A DNA stretch of 64,000 bases, taken from NCBI GenBank assembly GCA_017456555.1, contig JAFTJF010000007.1, positions 1-64,000 of the forward strand, read 5' to 3'. The stretch's first letter is position 1, and the number at the start of each line of letters is the position of its first letter. A model generated the notes under the pieces. That model had not been told where the DNA came from. It saw only the letters and a list, made by a program, of their open reading frames with translations, and ran no database searches. Position numbers and translations under genes: made by a program. Positions 19,099-29,520 of the stretch are shown in pieces. The DNA is from Clostridia bacterium (GTDB taxonomy: Bacteria > Bacillota > Clostridia > TANB77 > CAG-508).

Positions 19099-19962
19099 TT
19101 ATAGTTCTTTTAAAACATGATATAATGTTTCTTTTATGAATTCAGCAGATGTAAGTGGTGCAACTTTAGCTGGTAAAGATAAAGCCCAAATTACTTTTAT
19201 TCCTTTTTCTCTAGCAGCTCTTCTATCTACTCCACCTGGATTAGATGCTAAATCAACAATAATAGTTTCTTTTTTTATTAAATCTAATCTTTCTGCATCC
19301 AAAATTTGGAATGGTATTGTGTTTATTATTATATCAAATTTGTTAAGATTTTCATTTAAATCATTTAGGTGAACTGGATTATAACCGTAAGCTTTTATCC
19401 ATGAAATATCTTCATTTTTTCTAGCTTCACAATATACTTTAGCTCCAATTCCATCAAGCATTTTAGCTAAAACTTTTCCTATTCTACCAAATCCCATAAC
19501 AAGTACATTTGAACCATGAACAGTTCTTTGTGTTTCTTCCATAGCAATTTGAATTGTTCCTTCTGCAGTTGCTATTGTGTTTAATACAGAAAATTCTTCT
19601 CTTTTTAATAAATCTGTATATTGAATTCCATTTCCTTCTAATTCTTCTCTAATATTAATGTTTCCAGCAATTAAATATTTGTCTTTTAAAGCTTGAACAA
19701 AATCTGTTAATTCAACATTATTTCTTCCAAATGGTGTTGAAAGTCTTTTTCTATCACTAGATAATGGAATTGGGCCAACAACTATTTTTGAATTGCTAAC
19801 TGCTTCTTCTAATGTTGGACACATTTCTACACTTTCTAAATTTAATAATTCTTCTGAATTTTCAAGTCCATAAGTAAAAACTTTATATCCATCCTTATCT
19901 AACATTTCTATAAGTTTTACTATACGTAAATCTCCACCAACTACTGTTATTGATTTTTCCAT
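19099..19962 (-). CDS. dpaA: Dipicolinate synthase subunit A
   Basis: With DpaB makes dipicolinic acid, the calcium chelator of the spore core, from a lysine-pathway intermediate. N-terminal ITVVGGDLRIVKLIEML and a second Rossmann motif VLVMGFGRIGKVLAKML typical of DpaA/SpoVFA. The C-terminus has VDLASNPGGVD and the end SAEFIKETLYHVL. I start at ATG 19962 (MEKSITVV), which has AAAGGTG seven bases upstream; a GTG three codons earlier is part of that site. 287 residues. No dpaB is next to it, unlike the usual dpaAB pair. Expected in the mother cell under SigK-type control, but no such promoter was recognised. Confidence 0.88.
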   Translation of the reverse strand: MEKSITVVGGDLRIVKLIEMLDKDGYKVFTYGLENSEELLNLESVEMCPTLEEAVSNSKIVVGPIPLSSDRKRLSTPFGRNNVELTDFVQALKDKYLIAGNINIREELEGNGIQYTDLLKREEFSVLNTIATAEGTIQIAMEETQRTVHGSNVLVMGFGRIGKVLAKMLDGIGAKVYCEARKNEDISWIKAYGYNPVHLNDLNENLNKFDIIINTIPFQILDAERLDLIKKETIIVDLASNPGGVDRRAAREKGIKVIWALSLPAKVAPLTSAEFIKETLYHVLKEL

Positions 19963-20031
19963 AGATTTCACCTTTTACCTCTCTTTTTATAATTTAAACT
20001 TATGTATATTTTTAATTAATATAACTTGAAA

Positions 20032-21342
20032 TTAATTATTTCCCAAGTCTTTTAACTTTTCTTCTTTTGTTTTATCTTTTTCTTCTATTTCTTTTTCTTC
20101 AATCGCTAAATCTTTTTTTCTTTTTTCTTTATTAAAAATATAATCTAGTTTTTCATCAATTTTTTGTTTTGATACACCATCACTCATTTCTTCAACAAGT
20201 CTTGCTGTATATTCAAGATATTTTCTAGCCTCTTCTTCTTGTTCTTTTAAAATTATAGATTTTTCTACAATTTCATCATCATGCTCTTCTTCAACATCTT
20301 CTTTTTCATCCATTTTCACAGATACTGTTATATATTCTTTTATCTTCTCAAAGCTCTTTTCTTTTTCAGCAAGTTTTAAAAGTTTTGGTTCTATTTCTAT
20401 TGCTTTATTTAAAAAGTTTATTGCTTTATCTTTATCACCTTTTTGCACATATATCTTAGCTAATTGATAATAAGACATTGCTTCTAGTTCACCATATAAA
20501 CTGTTTTCAAAATATTTTTCAGCAGTATCGTAATCTCTTTGAATAAATGCAATTAAACCTAAGTTGTAATTTGCACCATACATCTTATGATTTATTGCAG
20601 CAGCTTTTTCATACATTTCTTTTGCCATTTGGAAATCACTTAATCTTGTATATACAATTCCTAAATTATAATACAAATCAAAATCTCCTGGCTTATAAAT
20701 TAATGCAGCATTATATACATTTGCTGCTTCTTTAAATCTTTCTTGCTCACATAAAAGTTCTCCAAGTAAACAAGATGCTTCATAGCAATCTGGCTTTGTT
20801 TTAACTAATGTATCTAACATTTGAATTGCTTCATCTTTTTTACCTAAATCTCTTAATAAATCTGCAATTTTAAAATATGATTTATAATCTTTTTTATTTA
20901 TATCTACAGCTGTTACATATTCATCTATTGCTCTTCTCATTCCGCCTTCTTTTTCATAGCATTCAGCTAGCAATTTATGGCCTAAATAACTTTCTGGATA
21001 TTTAGTAACAAGTTTTACTAAAATTGTTTTTGCTGTTTTAGTATCACCTATCATCATAAAAAACTTTGCAGCTGCAACACTTAATAATTCTGAAAAATTG
21101 AACCCTTTTGCTTCCATAATTATTATTGCTAAAGGTATTATTATTGAAAATATATATCTGATTGTCCACCAAAATCCATTTTCTTCAATTCCAAGTTTTA
21201 TTTCCACAAAACTAACTGTAATTCCTATAGCTTGCAATACTAATAAAATTATGTAATTTGCATCATTTCTTCTAATTATTTTGAAAAATATTATTATGAA
21301 TAATGAACATGCTAGTAAACTAAAAATTAATTTTTCAAGCAT
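20032..21342 (-). CDS. Membrane-anchored TPR-repeat protein
   Basis: Probably a scaffold for protein assembly; partner unknown. Three hydrophobic segments lie in the first 85 residues. From about 95 to 340 there are roughly seven 34-residue TPR units, for example YKSYFKIADLLRDLGKKDEAIQML and DFDLYYNLGIVYTRLSDFQMAKEMYEKAAAI. The last 90 residues are highly charged Glu/Lys coiled coil. GTGGAG precedes the ATG. Stands alone with its own promoter. Confidence 0.8.
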   Translation of the reverse strand: MLEKLIFSLLACSLFIIIFFKIIRRNDANYIILLVLQAIGITVSFVEIKLGIEENGFWWTIRYIFSIIIPLAIIIMEAKGFNFSELLSVAAAKFFMMIGDTKTAKTILVKLVTKYPESYLGHKLLAECYEKEGGMRRAIDEYVTAVDINKKDYKSYFKIADLLRDLGKKDEAIQMLDTLVKTKPDCYEASCLLGELLCEQERFKEAANVYNAALIYKPGDFDLYYNLGIVYTRLSDFQMAKEMYEKAAAINHKMYGANYNLGLIAFIQRDYDTAEKYFENSLYGELEAMSYYQLAKIYVQKGDKDKAINFLNKAIEIEPKLLKLAEKEKSFEKIKEYITVSVKMDEKEDVEEEHDDEIVEKSIILKEQEEEARKYLEYTARLVEEMSDGVSKQKIDEKLDYIFNKEKRKKDLAIEEKEIEEKDKTKEEKLKDLGNN

Positions 21343-21397
21343 AATTTTTTCTCCACTTCTACATCCTTGTTTTAAGTACTTCTCATAATTCTCAATG

Positions 21398-21426
21398 ATT
21401 ATATCATATAGTGTTTTTTAAAACAA
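21398..21426 (-). promoter_or_regulatory. Promoter of the TPR gene
   Basis: TTGTTT (21421-21426), 17-base spacer, TATAAT (21398-21403) on the minus strand, 56 bases before the start codon. Confidence 0.65.
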
Positions 21427-21548
21427 GAAAAATAAAGCAAAATATTCATTAATTCCTTAATATTTAAATTAATAAAATTCGACAATTTACAACATTTATC
21501 TTTTTTTATTTTGAGCAATTTCATAGCGATAGTTATAATTATCTCTAT

Positions 21549-21590
21549 GAAAAAAGAGTATATAAATCTCGATAATTTATATACTCTTTT
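21549..21590. terminator. Terminator of the NRPS-kinase-regulator operon
   Basis: Arms AAAAGAGTATATAAAT (21552-21567) and its inverse (21575-21590) with TTTTTT in the minus-strand direction, 30 bases after the response-regulator stop. Confidence 0.85.
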
Positions 21591-21620
21591 ATAATAATTT
21601 ATATTAATTCTTTTTATAGA

Positions 21621-22688
21621 TTAACATGGAAATTTTGCTCTTATTTCATTTATTTTATCTAATTTATTTTCTAAAATGTTTAGCATAACATTTGCAGCTT
21701 CTGGATCGAATTGTGTTCCTATCCCTTCTTTAATTTGATTTTTTACATATTCTAAATCCATTTCATCTCTATAAGAACGTTTTGATGTCATTGCATCAAA
21801 TGCATCTGCAACACTTACAATTCTTGCTAAAAATGATATTTGATCTCCTTTTAATTTTTGTGGATATCCATTTCCATCATATCTTTCATGGTGTGAATAA
21901 ATAATTGGAACAATATCTCTAAAAATTGAAGATGTTGATACAATTTGTTTTCCTATTGATGGATGTTTTTTCAACTCATTGTATTCTTCATCTGTTAGTT
22001 TAGATGGTTTTAATAAAATTGTATCTGATATACCTATTTTTCCAATATCATGGAATAATCCACCAATTCTTAATGTTGCAATATCTTTATCATAAAGCCC
22101 CAACTCTTGTCCTATTAAAACAGAATATGCAGAAACTCTATCTGAATGGCCTCTTATATAAGTATCTTTTGCTTCAACTGTATATCTTAACATTTGTATT
22201 GTTTCTAAATATGCTTTTTCAATTTTATCTTTTGAAGCTTTTAATTCTTCATTCATTTCTTTTATTGTTTGCATTTGTTCTATAGATTTAAATGCAGATT
22301 CAATAAGCAATAATAATTGATCAAATTTATCTTCTTTTTCACAATAAGCTTGAATTGATAATCTTTTTATTGTTTCTAGTGGTGGCACTAAATCCTTATG
22401 ACCTGTAAGTAAAATAATATATAATTCTTTATTAAATTTTCTAATTTCTTCAACAACAGTATCTCCATGTATTGGTGACATCATAAAGTCTAATAACATT
22501 AAATCATATTTTTCATTTTTTACTTTTTCTATAGCTTCATATGGATCTGTACATCCAACTAATGTATATCCAGAGTGTCTTAAAAATACAGATAATGAAT
22601 CTATAATTCCAATCTCATCATCAACTGCTATAATTTTATAATTTTTATTTTGATTTTCATTTTCATTTTGTTGTGCTGAAAGTCTCAT
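21621..22688 (-). CDS. Response regulator with HD-GYP cyclic-di-GMP phosphodiesterase
   Basis: Receiver domain (about 15-130): acidic pair in AVDDE, phospho-acceptor Asp in LMLLDFMM, Thr in LLTGH, Lys in YCEKED. A helical linker leads to the HD-GYP domain with HSDRV, FHDIGK, HHERYDGNGYP, and VADAFDAMTSKRSYR, all metal and catalytic residues kept, so active hydrolysis of cyclic-di-GMP is expected. Start at ATG 22688 (MRLSAQQ), GGAGG six bases upstream; a TTG five codons earlier overlaps that site. The gene starts 20 bases after the kinase stop and is surely co-transcribed. 355 residues. Confidence 0.93.
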   Translation of the reverse strand: MRLSAQQNENENQNKNYKIIAVDDEIGIIDSLSVFLRHSGYTLVGCTDPYEAIEKVKNEKYDLMLLDFMMSPIHGDTVVEEIRKFNKELYIILLTGHKDLVPPLETIKRLSIQAYCEKEDKFDQLLLLIESAFKSIEQMQTIKEMNEELKASKDKIEKAYLETIQMLRYTVEAKDTYIRGHSDRVSAYSVLIGQELGLYDKDIATLRIGGLFHDIGKIGISDTILLKPSKLTDEEYNELKKHPSIGKQIVSTSSIFRDIVPIIYSHHERYDGNGYPQKLKGDQISFLARIVSVADAFDAMTSKRSYRDEMDLEYVKNQIKEGIGTQFDPEAANVMLNILENKLDKINEIRAKFPC

Positions 22689-22707
22689 AGTATACCTCCA
22701 CAATTTA

Positions 22708-24711
22708 TTAATTATTCATTGGTAAATATATTTTAAATTCTGTACCTTTGTTTGAAGTTTCAAGTTTTATATCACCATTAAATTTTGCTTTTATCATTGA
22801 ATATGACATAAACACTCCAAGTCCAGTTCCTTCTTTACCTTTTGTTGTTATCATTTCTTTAAATAATTTATCTTTTATATTGTCTGGGATTCCTGGTCCA
22901 TAATCTTTTACAGAAATTAAAATTTTATTATTTTCTAATTTTGCACTTAAATCTATCGATTTATTTGGTTCCTTTTTATAAGCTTGTATAGCATTAGAAA
23001 TTAAATTGTTTAATACTTGTACTAAACTATTTATATTTCCTTTTAAAATCACATCATTGCTAACATCATTTTTTATATTTAGAGTTACTAATGCGGATTG
23101 AAGTTCGTGTTTCATTAAAATATTTGTGTGGCTAAATAATTCTTTTATAGTGAAATCAACGGTGTCATCTCCAGATAAATTAACAGCTTGTCCTTTTACT
23201 GTTGTAATTACTTCAGACATATATGATAATTGACCTTTAATTTTTTGAAGCCAAACTTTCATATCACTCGCAATTTCATGCATATCTTGTTCATTAACTT
23301 GTGGATTTCCAATTGATGCATCAAACTCATTTACTAAATCTGTTAGACCTGCTACACCACCAGATATAGAGAATATTGGTGTTTTTAAACTGTGTGCAAT
23401 ACCACCAACCATTTGTCCTAAAGATGCTAAACGTTCTCTTTCTACAAGCATATTTTGTTTATTATGAATATCTTCTATTTGAGCATTATTTAATTTTTGA
23501 ATATCATTAAATGCAACAACTAAATCTCCAATTTCATCATTTGAAACTACTGGTAAAAGAATTTCTTTTCCACTTTCATTACAAATATTTCTAAATCCTT
23601 TATGAATTTGTCTTAAAGATTTTGAAATAGATGATGAAAATATTGCTATTATTATTGCACTAATTGCAGCTAAAAATAATGCTGTTAAAACTAAATAATT
23701 TAAAGCTGTTTTAGAAAAAATATCATATAAAATTCCTATATAAACATTTCCTGTATCTGTTTTTAATTTTATAGAACTTCCTTGAGTATCTACTCCATAG
23801 CTATCATATAATCTTCCATTATTTTGTTCAGAAATTTGAATTGTATACTCTACAATAAAATTACTTATTTCTTCACCCTTTAGCATTTCATAAGTTTTAT
23901 CTTGATTTAAAATAAATACTCTATCAGTATCATTATATAATTCAAAACCATTTGCAATTTCTTTTATTTCAGCGTTTGTATAAACTTTTTCTGTGTCAAA
24001 TTTCTCTGTTAAAATTTTATTATATACGCTATACAAAACATCTTCTTTTTCTATTACACTTACTGAATATCCAACTAAAGCTGTAAGAATAATTGCAGCT
24101 ATACAAATTGGAAATACTAGTATCATAATTCTTTTTCTTAAGCTAACTCTAAAACCAATGTCTGAACCTTCAATATATGTTTGTGTTAAAATTTCATCAT
24201 ATAAATTCTTTGAAAATATGAAAGACACAACACCTAACAATATTGAAAATGATGCTAATAATATTATTATTTTTGCAATCATTATACTTAAGTGGCTACC
24301 CGTTAAAGATAAAACTAGTATTGTTATTATTGATGGTGTTAAAATCTCAAACATATAAAATTGATATGGTAGTGTTAAACATTTTTTTCTAATTAATTTT
24401 ATTTGTTCTTTATCACTATATCTTTTGGTTAAAGACATTTTATACCATTTATCAATATCTTTTAATGCAAACTTTGTGAAAAATACGATTCCTAATACAA
24501 TTACAATTCCTAAAATCAAAAATTGTGTATTAAAAGATATGTATGACATTTGAACATCAAATGGAGTATTTATTGTTCCTGGTCCATAATTTAAAATTTT
24601 AGGTATTATCATCATCAAAATTAATATAATTATAAATGCTATAGCAGCATATCTAAAAGAAATTATATTACTTGGTGTACTATTCCATTTTATTTTTTTC
24701 TTATTTCTCAC
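22708..24711 (-). CDS. Membrane sensor histidine kinase
   Basis: About six membrane segments (near 20-40, 65-88, 122-140, 143-166, 195-220 and 337-362) with one external sensing domain of roughly 115 residues between the last two, then a HAMP region (NDEIGDLVVAFN), an H-box GGIAHSLKTPIFSISGG, N-box NNLISNAIQAY, and G-boxes DYGPGIP and GTGLGVFMSYSM. A complete kinase of 667 residues. Four upstream membrane segments before the sensor are more than usual and could themselves bind a lipophilic ligand. GTG start with GGAGGG; 20 bases behind the NRPS and 19 ahead of the HD-GYP regulator. Confidence 0.92.
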   Translation of the reverse strand: MRNKKKIKWNSTPSNIISFRYAAIAFIIILILMMIIPKILNYGPGTINTPFDVQMSYISFNTQFLILGIVIVLGIVFFTKFALKDIDKWYKMSLTKRYSDKEQIKLIRKKCLTLPYQFYMFEILTPSIITILVLSLTGSHLSIMIAKIIILLASFSILLGVVSFIFSKNLYDEILTQTYIEGSDIGFRVSLRKRIMILVFPICIAAIILTALVGYSVSVIEKEDVLYSVYNKILTEKFDTEKVYTNAEIKEIANGFELYNDTDRVFILNQDKTYEMLKGEEISNFIVEYTIQISEQNNGRLYDSYGVDTQGSSIKLKTDTGNVYIGILYDIFSKTALNYLVLTALFLAAISAIIIAIFSSSISKSLRQIHKGFRNICNESGKEILLPVVSNDEIGDLVVAFNDIQKLNNAQIEDIHNKQNMLVERERLASLGQMVGGIAHSLKTPIFSISGGVAGLTDLVNEFDASIGNPQVNEQDMHEIASDMKVWLQKIKGQLSYMSEVITTVKGQAVNLSGDDTVDFTIKELFSHTNILMKHELQSALVTLNIKNDVSNDVILKGNINSLVQVLNNLISNAIQAYKKEPNKSIDLSAKLENNKILISVKDYGPGIPDNIKDKLFKEMITTKGKEGTGLGVFMSYSMIKAKFNGDIKLETSNKGTEFKIYLPMNN

Positions 24712-24731
24712 AAGTATCCCTCCGATTAATT

Positions 24732-27700
24732 TTAAATAAAATTCACTTCTCTCATGTATTTTACTATTTTTTCTATATATTTTTTATCTATTTTTTTCCA
24801 CTCTGATTTTAATAAACTTAAATATTTTTTTGTATATTCTGATTTTATATTTACTGAGAAATTATAGTCAATAGAAATATTTGAGTTTTTTGTATTATTT
24901 ATATCATTTATAATTCCAAATAAAATTTGAGCATTTTTACTTTTTGAAATTTCAACAATTCTTTCTTGAAAATCTTTTTCTGAAACTTTTTCTATATTAA
25001 TTCCGAAAGAAACTAATACATCAATTATTTCTTTTATTTCAACAAAATTGTGATTATACAAATGAAATACTTTATTATCTGCTATTTTATTTTTTGCAAG
25101 ATTTATTATTGCTTTAGAACAAGTATCTACTGGAGTAAATTCAATTTTTTGTTCCAACATTTCTTCAGATACACAACCTAATACTACCATAGATTTTATT
25201 CTTGTATAAAAAGCATTTTCATTTATATTTTCTTGGAATTTTCCATCTAGAGCTCTACCAGATAAAATTCCAATTCTATGAATTTGTGCAACTAAGCTTT
25301 TTTCCATATATTCTAAAACAATTTTTTCTGCTTCAAATTTACTATTAACATATACATTGTCCATATAATTTTGTCCAATATATAAATTATTTTCAGAAAA
25401 TTCGACATTTCTATTATCTTGTTTTACTAAATAATTTCCAGAAACACTTATTGATGATATATGTATAAATCTTAGCTTATTTTCATAAGAAAATTCTGCA
25501 ACATTTCTTGTTCCCTCAATATTTATGGTTTTAAAATCTTCATAATTGCCATAATGTTTTACTCTTGCTGCTGTATGGATTACTGTTGATACACTATTTT
25601 TTATTTCTTTTATTATATTTTCATCAAGACCGATATTTTTCTCAGAAATAGAGCCATCAACAACCAATACTCTTTTATCTAAATAATTTGACAAATCTTC
25701 ATCAAAATAGAATTTATATTGTTCAATTAATCTATCTTTTGGTGACTTATCTTTTTTACCTCTAACTAAACAATATATTTTTGAAGTTGTAGTTTTTAAA
25801 ATTTCATTTAATAAATGAATTCCAATAAAGCCATTAGCTCCTGTTAAAAATACATTTCCTAAAACTTCATTATCTAAATCTTTCTTATCTAGTACTTCTG
25901 ATAATTCATCTATATTATGTTTAAATTTATCTGGTATTTGAGCATCTTGTTCTTTATAAGTCGAATTATTACTGTCAATATTTTCAGCTAAAGTTCTTAT
26001 TGTTGTATATTTATAAAAATCTTGTGTATTCAAATTATAATTATATTGAAGTAATAATGTTTGAACTTCTATAATTCCTAAAGAGTCTAATCCAAGAACC
26101 ATAAATGGAGTATCTATATCGACCTCTTCAACTTCTAAAGTTTTACATATAATCTTAGATAACGTTTTTTCTGTTTTTGTTTTACCTTTTTCTATATTTG
26201 ATGTTTCAAGTTTTATTTTTGGAAGTTTTTTTCTATCAAGCTTACCATTTGGAGTAAGCGGAAATTTATCAATTTTAAAATATACTGCTGGTATCATATA
26301 GTTAGGCAAGTCTTTTAGTAAAATTGATGTTATTTTATTTGTATCTTGTTCTTCTTCTGAAATATAATAGCAAATTAAATATTTTTGATTTTCATCTGCA
26401 ATTACAACATTATTTAATATTTCAGGAATTTGGTTTATTTTATTTTCAATTTCTTCAAGTTCAACTCTATAACCACGAATTTTAACTTGGAAATCTGTTC
26501 TTCCCAAATGAACAATTTCTCCACTATTTGTATAATAAGCTAAATCATTTGTATTATATATTATTTGATTTTTCTCAAATGGAGATTTTACAAACTTTTC
26601 TTTTGTAAGTTCTTCTCTATTTAAATATCCATTTGATACACCATCTCCACCAATATATAATTCACCTGGTGTATATGTTGGAAGTAAATTTTTATCTTTA
26701 TCTAATATATAACATTTTGTATTTGCAATCGGTTTACCAATTGTAATCATATTTTTTGATTTTATTTTTTTAATAGTTGACCACACTGCTGTTTCTGTTG
26801 GCCCATACATATTAAATATATTTGCTTTTGTTAAGTTTTCAAATTTTTCTACAAGCCCTTTTGGAAGCCCTTCACCACCAACCATTATATCTGTCATATT
26901 TTTAATAAATTCTGTTGTATTTTTATTTTCTAATAATGCTTTAAATCTTGATGGAGTTGTTTGAATCATTGTTACATTATTTTCTAAACATACTTTATTT
27001 AATTTTTCAGAATTATTTTGCTCTAACTCATTTGCCAGTACTAAAGTCATTCCAGAAGTTAAAGCTCCCCAAAATTCTAAAACAAATATATCAAAACATA
27101 TTGTTGTTATTGAAACCATTACTTTTTCAGGAGCAAATTTAATTATTTCTTTTGTTCCTAGTAAAAAGTTATTTATATTTTTATGTTTTAGCATAACTCC
27201 TTTTGGTTTCCCAGTTGAACCAGAAGTATATATTAAATAAATTAAATCTTCTGGTTTTATACTTTCTTCAACTTCAACATTTTCTCTATTATAAGCAGTT
27301 GACTCTAAGCCAATATCAACTTTTTTAATATTTAATTTTTCATTTATAATTTTTTGAGTTTTCTTATTAGATAATAGCATTTTAGCACCACTATCTAATA
27401 ACATATATTCTATTCTCTCTTCTGGATATTCTGGATCTATTGGAAGATATGCCCCACCAATTTTTAATATTGCTAAAAGTCCAATTGCAAGTTCTAAAGA
27501 ACGATTAACACAAATACCTATAATATCTTTATATTTTGCACCTTCTAGTTTTAAACTATTAGCTAAAATATTAGATTTTTCATCTAATTCTTTATATGTC
27601 ATACTTCTATTTTCAAAAATTACAGCTTCTTTTTCTGGGTATTTTTTTACCATTTCTTTAAAATATTTTATAACATTTTTGTTTTTATTATATTTTAAAG

Positions 27701-29042
27701 TTGTATCATTAAAATCCACTAAAAGCTTTCTTTTTTCGTTTTCAGTAATTATTTCAATATCTTTAATTAAAACTTTATCAGTATCTAAAATTCTATTAAT
27801 CATTTCCATAATTCTAGAATGCATATTTTTTACATATTCATCAGAATATTTCAATTTTTTAAAATCATAACATACTGTTAATATTCCTTCTTCATCTAAA
27901 TCTAAAAATTGTATAGTCATATCATCAGTTACATTTTTATTAAATGCCCATCTTGTTGAATATTTGTATTCAGTTTCGTTGTTAGCTTTTGTTAATTGAT
28001 ATGAAAGAACAATGTTATATAAATTTGGAACTGAAGAATCTTTTTTTCTTAGCTCTTCTAATAACATTTGATATGGATATTTTTGATGTCTAAGTAAAGA
28101 AACAGTATCTTTAGAAATTTCATTTGCAAAACTAATAAAGTCTGTATCTGGTTCCACATTTACTTTAAAAGGAACAACATTTACAAACATTCCTACAATG
28201 TTTTTTTCTTTAAAATTAGTTCTATTTAATATTGGAGTACCAATACTAAATTCCTTTGAATTAATGATTTTTGAAATATAAACCGAATAAACAGCCATAA
28301 GGAAATTAAATACTGTAAGCTTATTTTTATTACAATATTCATTAATTAATTTCATTTTGGCTTTAGGAATAGAGAAAGTTAATCTTTCTCCAAGGCATGA
28401 AAATTCTGTATTTTTCTCAGAACTATCTGAAGGTAAAATTGCTGGATTTATATTATTTGAAAATAACTCATTCCAGTATTCTTTATCTTTTAAAAATTTT
28501 GAACTATTAAAATATTCTTTTTCATTTTCTGCATAATCAATATATGAAAATTCTACATCTTCACTAGCAATATTATTTTTTATATTTGAATATGCTTTCA
28601 TTATTTTTCTACAAGTTAAACCTAAAGTCCAACCATCAGAAAGAATGTGATGAATGTTTAATAAAAATCCACCAGCACCATTTTCAAATCTAAAAATTTT
28701 AAATTCATATAAAGCTGACTCAAATAAAGAAAAATGTTTTGCCATAAGCATATTTTCAATTTGATCAACTTCTGATTTATCTTTTATATCTATAATTTCA
28801 ATATCTGGAATTGTTTTCTCAGATATAAATTGTTTTACTTCATTTGCTTTTTGAATTAATTGAATATGAAAAACATCATTTTCTTTTATTACTGTTTCTA
28901 TTGCTTGTTTCAAAGCATCAAAATCAAGAACAGAATCTATAATTGCTGTTCCACAAATATTATTAACAGAAGTATTTTTATAAAACTTTTCTGTAAGTAG
29001 TATTGATTTTTGTGGATATGTTAAACTAACTAATTTTTTCAT
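24732..29042 (-). CDS. Single-module NRPS: condensation-adenylation-carrier-reductase
   Basis: Condensation domain with HHILSDG (131-137). Adenylation domain with IYTSGSTGKPKG (about 604), MYGPTETAVW, GRTDFQVKIRGYRVE and TPNGKLDRKKLP. Aligned by eye to GrsA, the pocket residues are D651, I, L, Q, M, G, M, V, W and K, very close to the known glycine code DILQLGLIWK. Carrier domain LGLDSL with the phosphopantetheine Ser at 987. Thioester reductase (about 1060-1436) with TGANGFIG and YVNSK. Expected release is as aldehyde or alcohol. With a leading condensation domain and no second module, the likely product is an N-acylated (or N-aminoacylated) glycinal or glycinol. First gene of a three-gene operon. 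No phosphopantetheinyl transferase or export gene nearby. Confidence 0.93.
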   Translation of the reverse strand: MKKLVSLTYPQKSILLTEKFYKNTSVNNICGTAIIDSVLDFDALKQAIETVIKENDVFHIQLIQKANEVKQFISEKTIPDIEIIDIKDKSEVDQIENMLMAKHFSLFESALYEFKIFRFENGAGGFLLNIHHILSDGWTLGLTCRKIMKAYSNIKNNIASEDVEFSYIDYAENEKEYFNSSKFLKDKEYWNELFSNNINPAILPSDSSEKNTEFSCLGERLTFSIPKAKMKLINEYCNKNKLTVFNFLMAVYSVYISKIINSKEFSIGTPILNRTNFKEKNIVGMFVNVVPFKVNVEPDTDFISFANEISKDTVSLLRHQKYPYQMLLEELRKKDSSVPNLYNIVLSYQLTKANNETEYKYSTRWAFNKNVTDDMTIQFLDLDEEGILTVCYDFKKLKYSDEYVKNMHSRIMEMINRILDTDKVLIKDIEIITENEKRKLLVDFNDTTLKYNKNKNVIKYFKEMVKKYPEKEAVIFENRSMTYKELDEKSNILANSLKLEGAKYKDIIGICVNRSLELAIGLLAILKIGGAYLPIDPEYPEERIEYMLLDSGAKMLLSNKKTQKIINEKLNIKKVDIGLESTAYNRENVEVEESIKPEDLIYLIYTSGSTGKPKGVMLKHKNINNFLLGTKEIIKFAPEKVMVSITTICFDIFVLEFWGALTSGMTLVLANELEQNNSEKLNKVCLENNVTMIQTTPSRFKALLENKNTTEFIKNMTDIMVGGEGLPKGLVEKFENLTKANIFNMYGPTETAVWSTIKKIKSKNMITIGKPIANTKCYILDKDKNLLPTYTPGELYIGGDGVSNGYLNREELTKEKFVKSPFEKNQIIYNTNDLAYYTNSGEIVHLGRTDFQVKIRGYRVELEEIENKINQIPEILNNVVIADENQKYLICYYISEEEQDTNKITSILLKDLPNYMIPAVYFKIDKFPLTPNGKLDRKKLPKIKLETSNIEKGKTKTEKTLSKIICKTLEVEEVDIDTPFMVLGLDSLGIIEVQTLLLQYNYNLNTQDFYKYTTIRTLAENIDSNNSTYKEQDAQIPDKFKHNIDELSEVLDKKDLDNEVLGNVFLTGANGFIGIHLLNEILKTTTSKIYCLVRGKKDKSPKDRLIEQYKFYFDEDLSNYLDKRVLVVDGSISEKNIGLDENIIKEIKNSVSTVIHTAARVKHYGNYEDFKTINIEGTRNVAEFSYENKLRFIHISSISVSGNYLVKQDNRNVEFSENNLYIGQNYMDNVYVNSKFEAEKIVLEYMEKSLVAQIHRIGILSGRALDGKFQENINENAFYTRIKSMVVLGCVSEEMLEQKIEFTPVDTCSKAIINLAKNKIADNKVFHLYNHNFVEIKEIIDVLVSFGINIEKVSEKDFQERIVEISKSKNAQILFGIINDINNTKNSNISIDYNFSVNIKSEYTKKYLSLLKSEWKKIDKKYIEKIVKYMREVNFI

Positions 29043-29075
29043 ATTCTACATCCTAAAATATTTTATCACAACAAA

Positions 29076-29103
29076 ATTATATCTTAACTTCCTTAAAAAT
29101 CAA
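29076..29103 (-). promoter_or_regulatory. Candidate promoter of the NRPS operon
   Basis: TTGATT (29098-29103), 16-base spacer, TATAAT (29076-29081) on the minus strand. Transcription would begin about 27 bases before the ATG, which has a modest AGGAT site. Confidence 0.6.
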
Positions 29104-29181
29104 GATACTTCTAGTATTTGTATAAAATATATTTTTATAAAATTTTATATAAAAAATTTACACAATATTTAATTTATCTTT

Positions 29182-29478
29182 TTAATAATATTTAACAAAC
29201 AAATATATTATTAAAGCAATTTCAGCAATTAAAATTGTTGGCATACCAACTGTAAATTTTAATTTTTTAGTCTTATGTCTAAAAGTATACATACCAGCTA
29301 TTGTTCCAATTCCACCACCAAGTAAGCAAAGCATCATTAAAGTGCCTTCTGGAATTCTCCACCAATCTTTTTTAGCTTTCAATTTATCAATCCCCATAGC
29401 AAGAAATCCAATAACATTTATAGTAAGTACATAAATTAAAACATATTTCCAATTAATTAATCCAAGCAAAGCTTTCAT
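29182..29478 (-). CDS. DUF1294 small membrane protein
   Basis: Short membrane protein of unknown function, 98 residues, with about three hydrophobic segments. The DUF1294 hallmarks are MGIDKLKAKKDWWRIPEGTL and LGGGIGTIAGMYTFRHKTKK. Start chosen at ATG 29478, which has AAAGGA eight bases upstream; the ATG five codons earlier overlaps that site. It stands alone between the NRPS operon and a long palindrome. Confidence 0.8.
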   Translation of the reverse strand: MKALLGLINWKYVLIYVLTINVIGFLAMGIDKLKAKKDWWRIPEGTLMMLCLLGGGIGTIAGMYTFRHKTKKLKFTVGMPTILIAEIALIIYLFVKYY

Positions 29479-29520
29479 AATCTTTCCTTTCATAATCTCT
29501 ATAAAATAATTTAAAGAAAT

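Follow-up and report, generated by a model that had tools for sequence, protein, structure and literature searches.

The window analysed here, i.e. the whole stretch of 64,000 nt from contig JAFTJF010000007.1, harbours on its minus strand an operon (21621-29042) of three genes, which are predicted to encode a non-ribosomal peptide synthetase (NRPS), a membrane histidine kinase and a response regulator with an HD-GYP output domain, in this order (Table 1). The comparison with relatives revealed that in single-module systems the NRPS and the sensor half of the kinase are inherited and swapped as one unit, and the kinase core and the regulator as another.

Operon layout and predicted gene products

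The first-pass annotation, which had been made from the sequence alone, described three same-strand genes with gaps of 20 and about 19 bases, one promoter candidate and one terminator. The gene arrangement was confirmed: 20 bases separate the NRPS gene from the kinase gene, which starts with GTG, and 4 or 19 bases separate the latter from the regulator gene, depending on the choice between its TTG start and an alternative ATG at 22688. These gaps leave no space for a further gene, e.g. for a ribosomal precursor peptide and its processing enzyme. The single terminator was recovered as an AU-rich hairpin that a consensus scan requiring three G-C pairs had missed. The promoter-like site exists as well, but such sites are not enriched in the region (95 found versus 87.9, sd 10.0, in shuffles) and thus occur at chance level.

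The first gene encodes the only match to the Condensation family in the source genome (1.67 Mb, 13 contigs, 88.5% complete). The order of the Pfam families Condensation, AMP-binding, PP-binding and NAD_binding_4 agrees with the single module of condensation (C), adenylation (A), carrier (T) and reductase (R) domains assigned earlier. The reductase part reached 200.9 bits with TIGR01746 (cut-off 213.35), and the best NCBIfam match of the whole protein was the aureusimine synthase NF047350, whose second module was covered by residues 7-1432 with a score of 771.8 bits, far below the cut-off of 2500. The pocket-code positions and the glycine-like label of the code DILQMGMVW(K) are our assumption; we attempted to assign glycine via LgrA module 2 as nearest solved relative, and since this alignment lacked matching pocket letters the label was not derived from it. 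The A-domain codes are highly diverse across the relatives. Among 99 NRPSs, HHxxxDA, DS or DG was matched 94 times in first C domains and HHxxxDG 48 times in later ones, which would fit the first C domains forming a separate, perhaps acylating, class. The most likely product is presumed to be an N-acyl amino aldehyde or alcohol, and the code in the window suggests N-acyl-glycinal or, after full reduction, an N-acylethanolamine as in the host. In a close relative (G371; loci L032 and L009/L200) the NRPS frame is broken between the carrier and the reductase domain (1083 and 369 aa), and the kinase and regulator frames are whole.

For the kinase, six membrane segments and an external sensor domain had been claimed. 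Its external stretch spans about residues 223-334, but only five hydrophobic stretches precede the core, and our reading of six segments holds only if the one at residues 118-170, which is long enough for two, is counted twice. The polypeptide stops after HATPase_c, so that the kinase is not of the hybrid type.

The regulator was correctly described as a receiver-HD-GYP protein with intact catalytic motifs, as Pfam and a motif check found both HD and HHExxDGxGYP intact; no DNA-binding domain was detected by Pfam. All five receiver residues (D28, D29, D72, T100 and K123) are intact in 74 of 74 kinase-bearing systems, and the checked HD-GYP residues are kept in all of these except for D276 in one. 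The 74 systems were selected by a 60% receiver cut and a length above 300 aa, with three fragments as the sole HD-GYP neighbours under the receiver cut. Judging from its motifs, the regulator may hydrolyse cyclic-di-GMP (c-di-GMP).

Two GGDEF matches were found in the source genome. One belongs to a response regulator (RR)-GGDEF protein carrying GGDDF (G000:C10:12655-13581), the only intact-looking diguanylate cyclase candidate found there, and the other to a GGDEF-like, degenerate cyclase that has lost the motif (RYMGPKF; G000:C3:77950-78291). The genome also encodes a second HD-GYP protein, whose motif was read by eye, and PilZ had no match in this 88.5% complete assembly. The RR-GGDEF protein was considered as a synthase co-travelling with the system and set aside, as it also occurs in NRPS-negative genomes (G055, G077, G112); it is present in 341 of the 390 family genomes sampled (see below) and therefore not tied to the operon.

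Table 1. Coordinates of the operon genes, their domains and the associated signals in the window.
Feature	Position	Strand	Basis
Single-module NRPS (C-A-T-R), 1436 aa, first operon gene	24732..29042	-	Pfam, NCBIfam
Condensation domain, HHILSDG, residues 4-441	27720..29033	-	Pfam and motif
Adenylation domain, pocket code DILQMGMVW(K)	26208..27677	-	Pfam; code from alignment
Carrier (T) domain, GLDSLG, residues 960-1020	25983..26165	-	Pfam and motif
Thioester reductase domain, TGANGFIG and YVNSK	24735..25856	-	Pfam NAD_binding_4; TIGR01746, residues 1063-1436
Membrane histidine kinase, 667 aa	22708..24711	-	Pfam HATPase_c
Sensor half of the kinase (residues 1 to about 380-390), membrane segments and external domain	23572..24711	-	Co-varies with NRPS
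Kinase core (DHp and ATPase), conserved, co-varies with regulator	22711..23514	-	Pfam, alignment
Stretch in which the swapped cassettes of relatives end, kinase codons about 383-425	23437..23565	-	DNA comparisons
Response regulator with HD-GYP output, 360 aa	21621..22703	-	Pfam Response_reg and HD_5/HD
Receiver domain, D28 D29 D72 T100 K123	22308..22634	-	Pfam and residues
HD-GYP domain, HD at 218-219, HHERYDGNGYP at 271-281	21699..22190	-	Pfam and motif
Candidate promoter TTGATT-16-TATAAT	29076..29103	-	Site scan; alone not above chance
AU-rich intrinsic terminator, 17-bp hairpin and U run	21552..21590	-	z -4.04

Conservation of the operon in related genomes

The family sample comprised 390 genomes, which were searched with thresholds of E 1e-60 for the NRPS and E 1e-45 for the kinase core. 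The NRPS was detected in 301 and the kinase core in 293 of them; both occurred in 292 genomes, the NRPS alone in nine, the kinase alone in one and neither in 88 (Fisher p 9e-76). The sole kinase-only genome (G073) is 68% complete, and the three NRPS-only genomes that were inspected (G072, G302, G321) are all cut by contig ends, which lie just past the NRPS (L139), within the kinase (L146) or within the NRPS (L147). The order sample outside the family (385 genomes, 273 positive in all; NRPS threshold E 1e-40) contained 17 kinase-positive genomes, all of which have the NRPS. In 14 of these 17 loci, including G436 with a core of only 36% identity, the gene after the NRPS is the kinase or the beginning of it.

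The NRPS lies directly upstream of the kinase on the same strand in 76 of 80 kinase-anchored loci; three of the others (L070, L092, L094) start at, or at most 260 bases from, a contig end, and L053 has other genes there, including one for a UvrD helicase. Conversely, a set of 40 NRPS-anchored loci was hand-picked for genus spread, with G072, G302 and G321, missed by the kinase search, added deliberately. In 37 of these a complete or fragmented kinase gene comes next; the three misses (L136, L139, L147) are contig ends. Where there was room to judge (35 NRPS-anchored loci), the regulator was found downstream on the same strand in 26, on the opposite strand in one (L131), as a fragment in one (L155) and not nearby in seven. 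Across the 98 deduplicated systems the median gap between NRPS and kinase is 13.5 bases and a regulator follows within 3 kb in 72; L150 and L088 represent the same contig. A search of related genomes for this adjacency, as had been proposed, thus found it far above chance, and chance neighbourhood was ruled out by the co-occurrence and locus counts. NRPS homologues without the kinase had been named as the finding that would make the link accidental. The link held, as 292 of the 302 genomes with either gene have both.

Twelve of the 88 genomes with neither gene were searched using the regulator. A full-length relative of 50-55% identity was detected in five (G235, G055, G190, G009, G202) and an HD-GYP-only fragment in two (G214, G226); the remaining five contained a 33% relative only (G112), a distant HD-GYP match only (G014, G015) or nothing (G077, G006). 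The five relic loci with these full-length relatives lack NRPS and kinase and keep the usual neighbours, namely the protease in four and DUF975 in three. All five relics have lost at least one of D28, D29, T100 and K123 (D29 in four, T100 in four), and the HD-GYP residues checked remain. Compared with the systems, their receivers have a mean identity of 0.25-0.44 (0.85 among the systems themselves) and their HD-GYP domains one of 0.63-0.69 (0.75 among the systems). Because the locus is in place, the absence of NRPS and kinase is taken as a probable loss. At the level of loci, L171-L175 have a decayed receiver and L176 and L177 retain the HD-GYP domain alone.

Genes for an HtrA-like protease, an AMP-binding ligase, a Tex protein and a DUF975 protein were considered as parts of the system and set aside as flanks, since the first three lie on the opposite strand in most tabulated loci having them and since the protease and DUF975 are kept in the relic loci. 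In relatives (e.g. L034, L088) the gene after the regulator often encodes a protein of about 255-265 aa; in L034 it was assigned to DUF975 by Pfam. The immediate neighbourhood in the window (20032-29493) consists of genes for a TPR protein, the regulator, the kinase, the NRPS and a DUF1294 protein, and the N-oxygenase PvfB is not among them. The flanks in the window, DUF1294 upstream (29182-29493) and the TPR protein with a dipicolinate synthase subunit A-like protein downstream (19099-21342), are unlike those of most relatives and are common to the near relatives L032 and L215.

Mosaic structure of synthase, sensor half and chassis

Two sensor classes were distinguished. Single-module systems mostly have kinases of about 667 aa, the first half of which is window-like (type A), and multi-module NRPSs are accompanied by kinases of about 600 aa (type B). 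In L100, the one type B kinase scanned, Pfam gave HisKA_7TM and, weakly, PAS. The type A and the 7TM type B sensors represent non-homologous classes. The type A sensor half of the window had no Pfam match over the cut-off, among 29 type A members only weak scattered Pfam matches were obtained, and a profile found no convincing solved structure in the PDB. In the core, H440, N569, N573, D603, G628, G630 and G632 are kept in 36 of 36 aligned type A sequences.

The co-variation analysis started from 46 single-module type A systems, 33 of which have a regulator; together with the window these gave 34 rows (13 dropped). The mean p-distance was 0.28 for the kinase core, 0.21 for the regulator and about 0.7 for the sensor half. 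Core and regulator distances were correlated with rho 0.81 and those of the sensor half and the NRPS domains C, A and R with 0.33 to 0.60, compared with -0.12 to 0.16 between the NRPS and the core or regulator and 0.00 to 0.19 between sensor parts and the core or regulator. A sliding window placed the switch point at kinase residues 380-410. The result held when each NRPS cluster was reduced to a single representative (25 or 20 rows). The correlations were then 0.63 and 0.66 for sensor and NRPS and 0.73 and 0.71 for core and regulator, with permutation p at the floor of 0.0005, and all four cross-comparisons were negative (with the 25 representatives, sensor and core -0.03, NRPS and regulator -0.28). 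In a wider set of 74 type A pairs, close NRPSs (<0.40) with far sensors (>0.55) occurred in one of 99 comparisons, a borderline case, and close sensors with far NRPSs in none of 74.

The same boundary was observed at the DNA level. Upstream of the operon L073 and L044 share the genes for the HtrA-like protease (95.6% identity) and the AMP-ligase (96.3%; both named by Pfam), L073 having two extra genes in between. One similar stretch of 89 bases remains upstream of the NRPS and none through the NRPS and 391 kinase codons, beyond which the identity is 95.0% over 4399 bases comprising the kinase core, the regulator and the Tex gene. Between the two systems, kinase core plus regulator are about 96% and the NRPSs about 29% identical, and their A-domain codes are DFWNLGPIF and DVYYGGMVG. 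In five more single-module pairs and in five pairs of types A and B with close chassis, i.e. kinase core and regulator, strong similarity resumes at kinase codons about 383-425; the one-module type A system L042 and the two-module type B system L099, for instance, share 89.8% identity between codon 418 and the kinase end and 93.1% over the regulator. Some swap pairs have short stretches of 65-79% identity within the NRPS, and L063/L049 also around the NRPS start.

The sensor class follows the number of modules. The one-module systems among the 98 comprise 50 of type A, two of type B and two unclear ones, and the multi-module systems none of type A, 41 of type B and three unclear ones (Fisher 2.1e-24 for the clear ones, 50:2 and 0:41). 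Of the five unclear systems, L072 and L121 have split kinase frames and the others are presumed to be split as well. The two-module relatives have the order CAT-CAT-R. A chassis tree of 71 rows (36 A, 35 B), in which L072 and L079 were hand-labelled as multi-module and type B owing to broken frames, implied 12 changes of sensor type, at least five of them forced by supported branches, and a more careful tree implied 13; type A as a single clade was rejected (AU test, p 2e-5). The careful tree yielded 12 independent pairs with unequal module numbers; the sensor shifted in the corresponding direction in 11 of them and in the opposite direction in none (p 0.001).

Tandem kinase pairs lie between NRPS and regulator in several loci of the same genus (L202-L205, L213, L214, L218, L121), and in L218 and L121 the two kinases represent one of each sensor class; such loci are possible intermediates of cassette exchange. 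In L121 (G029, two kinases) and L159 (G328) the kinase frame is broken at an identical spot in three copies, where a Leu codon is followed by C-GGA-CAA (or C-GGC-CAA) and the conserved ERLASL-GQ continues in the +1 frame. The site gave 23 in-frame matches in 19 of 20 further loci of the genus, and CGG accounts for 1 of 18102 codons in the window genes. The break resembles a +1 frameshift occurring at a rare codon.

A putative signal circuit and its alternatives

We consider it quite probable that the operon constitutes a self-made signal circuit with a matched receptor and exchangeable pherotypes. The NRPS would acylate one amino acid, or link it to a different donor, and release the product reductively as a small aldehyde or alcohol, for which the hypervariable sensor half of the kinase would be the matched receptor. 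Ligand binding would alter the phosphorylation of the conserved receiver and thereby the phosphodiesterase activity of the HD-GYP domain, changing c-di-GMP. The earlier claim that the kinase reads the NRPS product receives indirect support, since NRPS and sensor half co-vary and are swapped jointly, but the binding itself we infer, as we do the chemical product, its export or re-entry, the signalling direction, c-di-GMP as substrate and any density-dependent behaviour. The c-di-GMP part of the circuit would rest on the intact HD-GYP motifs together with one intact-looking GGDEF-family protein.

Several observations weigh against such a circuit. No exporter-like gene was detected among the operon genes by Pfam, and the source genome has only one intact-looking GGDEF-like protein, with GGDDF. 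No regulator was found downstream within 3 kb in 26 of the 98 systems, contig ends, broken frames and opposite strands counted in, and in all seven genomes without a nearby regulator one of 62-66% identity is encoded elsewhere. L053 has a kinase-regulator pair without NRPS, and three of the 17 loci outside the family depart from the order, as G422 has kinase, NRPS and regulator in this sequence and no kinase was seen in the 1.5-kb flank of G414 and G410, the NRPS of the latter being cut by the contig end. A single-module NRPS is combined with a 7TM sensor in L088 (identical to L150) and L152, and a quick tree gave six independent pairs, five of them changing the same way (p 0.06). The mosaic is weaker in two-module systems (25 of 43 type B systems, selected for having a regulator and an unbroken NRPS of 2380-2560 aa): correlations of 0.71 for core and regulator, 0.53 for 7TM and reductase and 0.50 for PAS and module 1 stand beside 0.51 for 7TM and core and 0.48 for 7TM and regulator. 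Finally, the nine specificity residues added no sensor co-variation after controlling for the rest of the A domain (partial 0.055, p 0.20), so that the idea of pocket residues matching the ligand was discarded; in a comparison meant to be at similar C and R distance, the mean sensor distance was 0.537 for like and 0.721 for unlike codes, but the C and R distance also differed (0.506 versus 0.588).

The lack of an extra signal from the code residues, together with breakpoints located where homology resumes and the loose tracking of the modules in two-module NRPSs, as if these recombined too, is what hitch-hiking would produce, i.e. a swapping of NRPS and sensor half as mere neighbours, with the kinase core as nearest homology and no match of ligand and receptor. 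Mismatches would then be expected to survive, yet they amount to none of 41 multi-module and two of 52 single-module systems with clear class, and close NRPSs with far sensors or the reverse are as rare as given above. Neutral hitch-hiking would furthermore explain neither the decay of the receiver where the kinase is gone nor the presence of the pair in 292 genomes, and it appears unlikely to us. We regard it as similarly improbable that the signal circuit holds and its output is something other than c-di-GMP turnover, such as another nucleotide or a scaffold role of the HD-GYP protein. The sparse machinery, with a single plausible GGDEF protein (GGDDF) and PilZ unmatched in the 88.5% complete genome, would agree with such an output, which is opposed by the retention of the HD-GYP residues in the 74 systems, apart from D276 in one, and in the five relics, and by the RR-GGDEF protein in 341 of 390 genomes.

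Still less probable is that the kinase senses another cue, e.g. the envelope state, diet or a host or competitor molecule, and merely works beside an NRPS whose product serves as an effector, e.g. by inhibiting proteases. In favour of this reading, dipeptide aldehydes act on host proteases, and an HD-GYP output need not mean quorum sensing. Reductase-releasing NRPSs of the gut produce such aldehydes, according to the portion of the source consulted (PMC12327764). Against it, a cue unrelated to the product does not predict that the sensor class tracks the module count on the chassis tree or that sensor and NRPS co-diverge, and the regulator has no DNA-binding domain for a direct action on the operon.

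The mosaic predicts that each NRPS product should activate only its co-travelling sensor half. If true, a quorum-sensing-like system of NRPS signals would exist in a large gut family, where roughly three quarters of the genomes sampled have it; it would supply naturally matched pairs of synthase and sensor as tools and connect a small molecule directly with an HD-GYP enzyme. That synthase and sensor half are exchanged between species as a matched unit suggests that many uncultured gut Clostridia both produce and perceive a small-molecule language of their own. The products that NRPSs of gut Clostridia release reductively are so far known as protease-inhibiting aldehydes. We are evenly divided over the wider proposal that such products are first of all a bacterial language, with synthase and receptor half as an exchangeable pherotype cassette, even across sensor folds, while hundreds of uncultured species share the kinase-HD-GYP chassis, and with N-acyl-glycinal or an N-acylethanolamine as product of the window system.

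Comparison with known systems

A narrow search of the open-access literature found no description of NRPS, kinase and HD-GYP protein as one signal circuit. The statement of the first-pass annotation that no system with this exact set is described thus stands for the NRPS version within that literature, but RpfF/RpfC/RpfG follows the same circuit logic. Metagenome assemblies are named in the titles of all 80 kinase-anchored records, and this origin may account for the absence of work on these systems.

The ruminopeptin and pyrazinone-family clusters, many of which are of clostridial origin, employ reductase release. The gut NRPSs giving dipeptide aldehydes resemble the present enzymes in being reductase-terminated, and the type B relatives have two or more modules (CAT-CAT-R) as well, whereas the NRPS in the window has one module with one A and one T domain; the part of the source on these NRPSs that was available mentions neither a kinase nor an HD-GYP partner (PMC12327764). 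Small NRPS-dependent autoinducers exist in the form of Pvf, valdiazen and leudiazen (PMC10194917; PMC5878181, both as available in part). The pvf cluster encodes an N-oxygenase, PvfB, which is not found beside the window NRPS, and the accessible sections of PMC10194917 leave the receptor to future study and do not mention a linked kinase.

In the diffusible signal factor (DSF) system RpfF/RpfC/RpfG of Xanthomonas a synthase, a sensor kinase and a receiver-HD-GYP regulator are combined as proposed here, where the NRPS would be the signal synthase. There the synthase RpfF is crotonase-like and the kinase RpfC is of the hybrid type, unlike the NRPS and the simple kinase ending after HATPase_c in the window. 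DSF binds to the N-terminal sensor region of the kinase, as stated in the excerpt available (PMC5391125).

With ComQXPA and agr the operon shares the same-strand arrangement of signal maker, histidine kinase and regulator. The agr system shows the same pattern of hypervariable synthase and sensor versus conserved core and regulator, which holds here for single-module and more weakly for two-module systems. In ComQXPA the N-terminus of ComP is variable compared with the conserved kinase part, at least in the portion of the source at hand (PMC4008528). In contrast to both, an NRPS would replace the processed ribosomal peptide as signal source, the output is an HD-GYP enzyme instead of a DNA-binding regulator, and sensor folds of different classes are exchanged.

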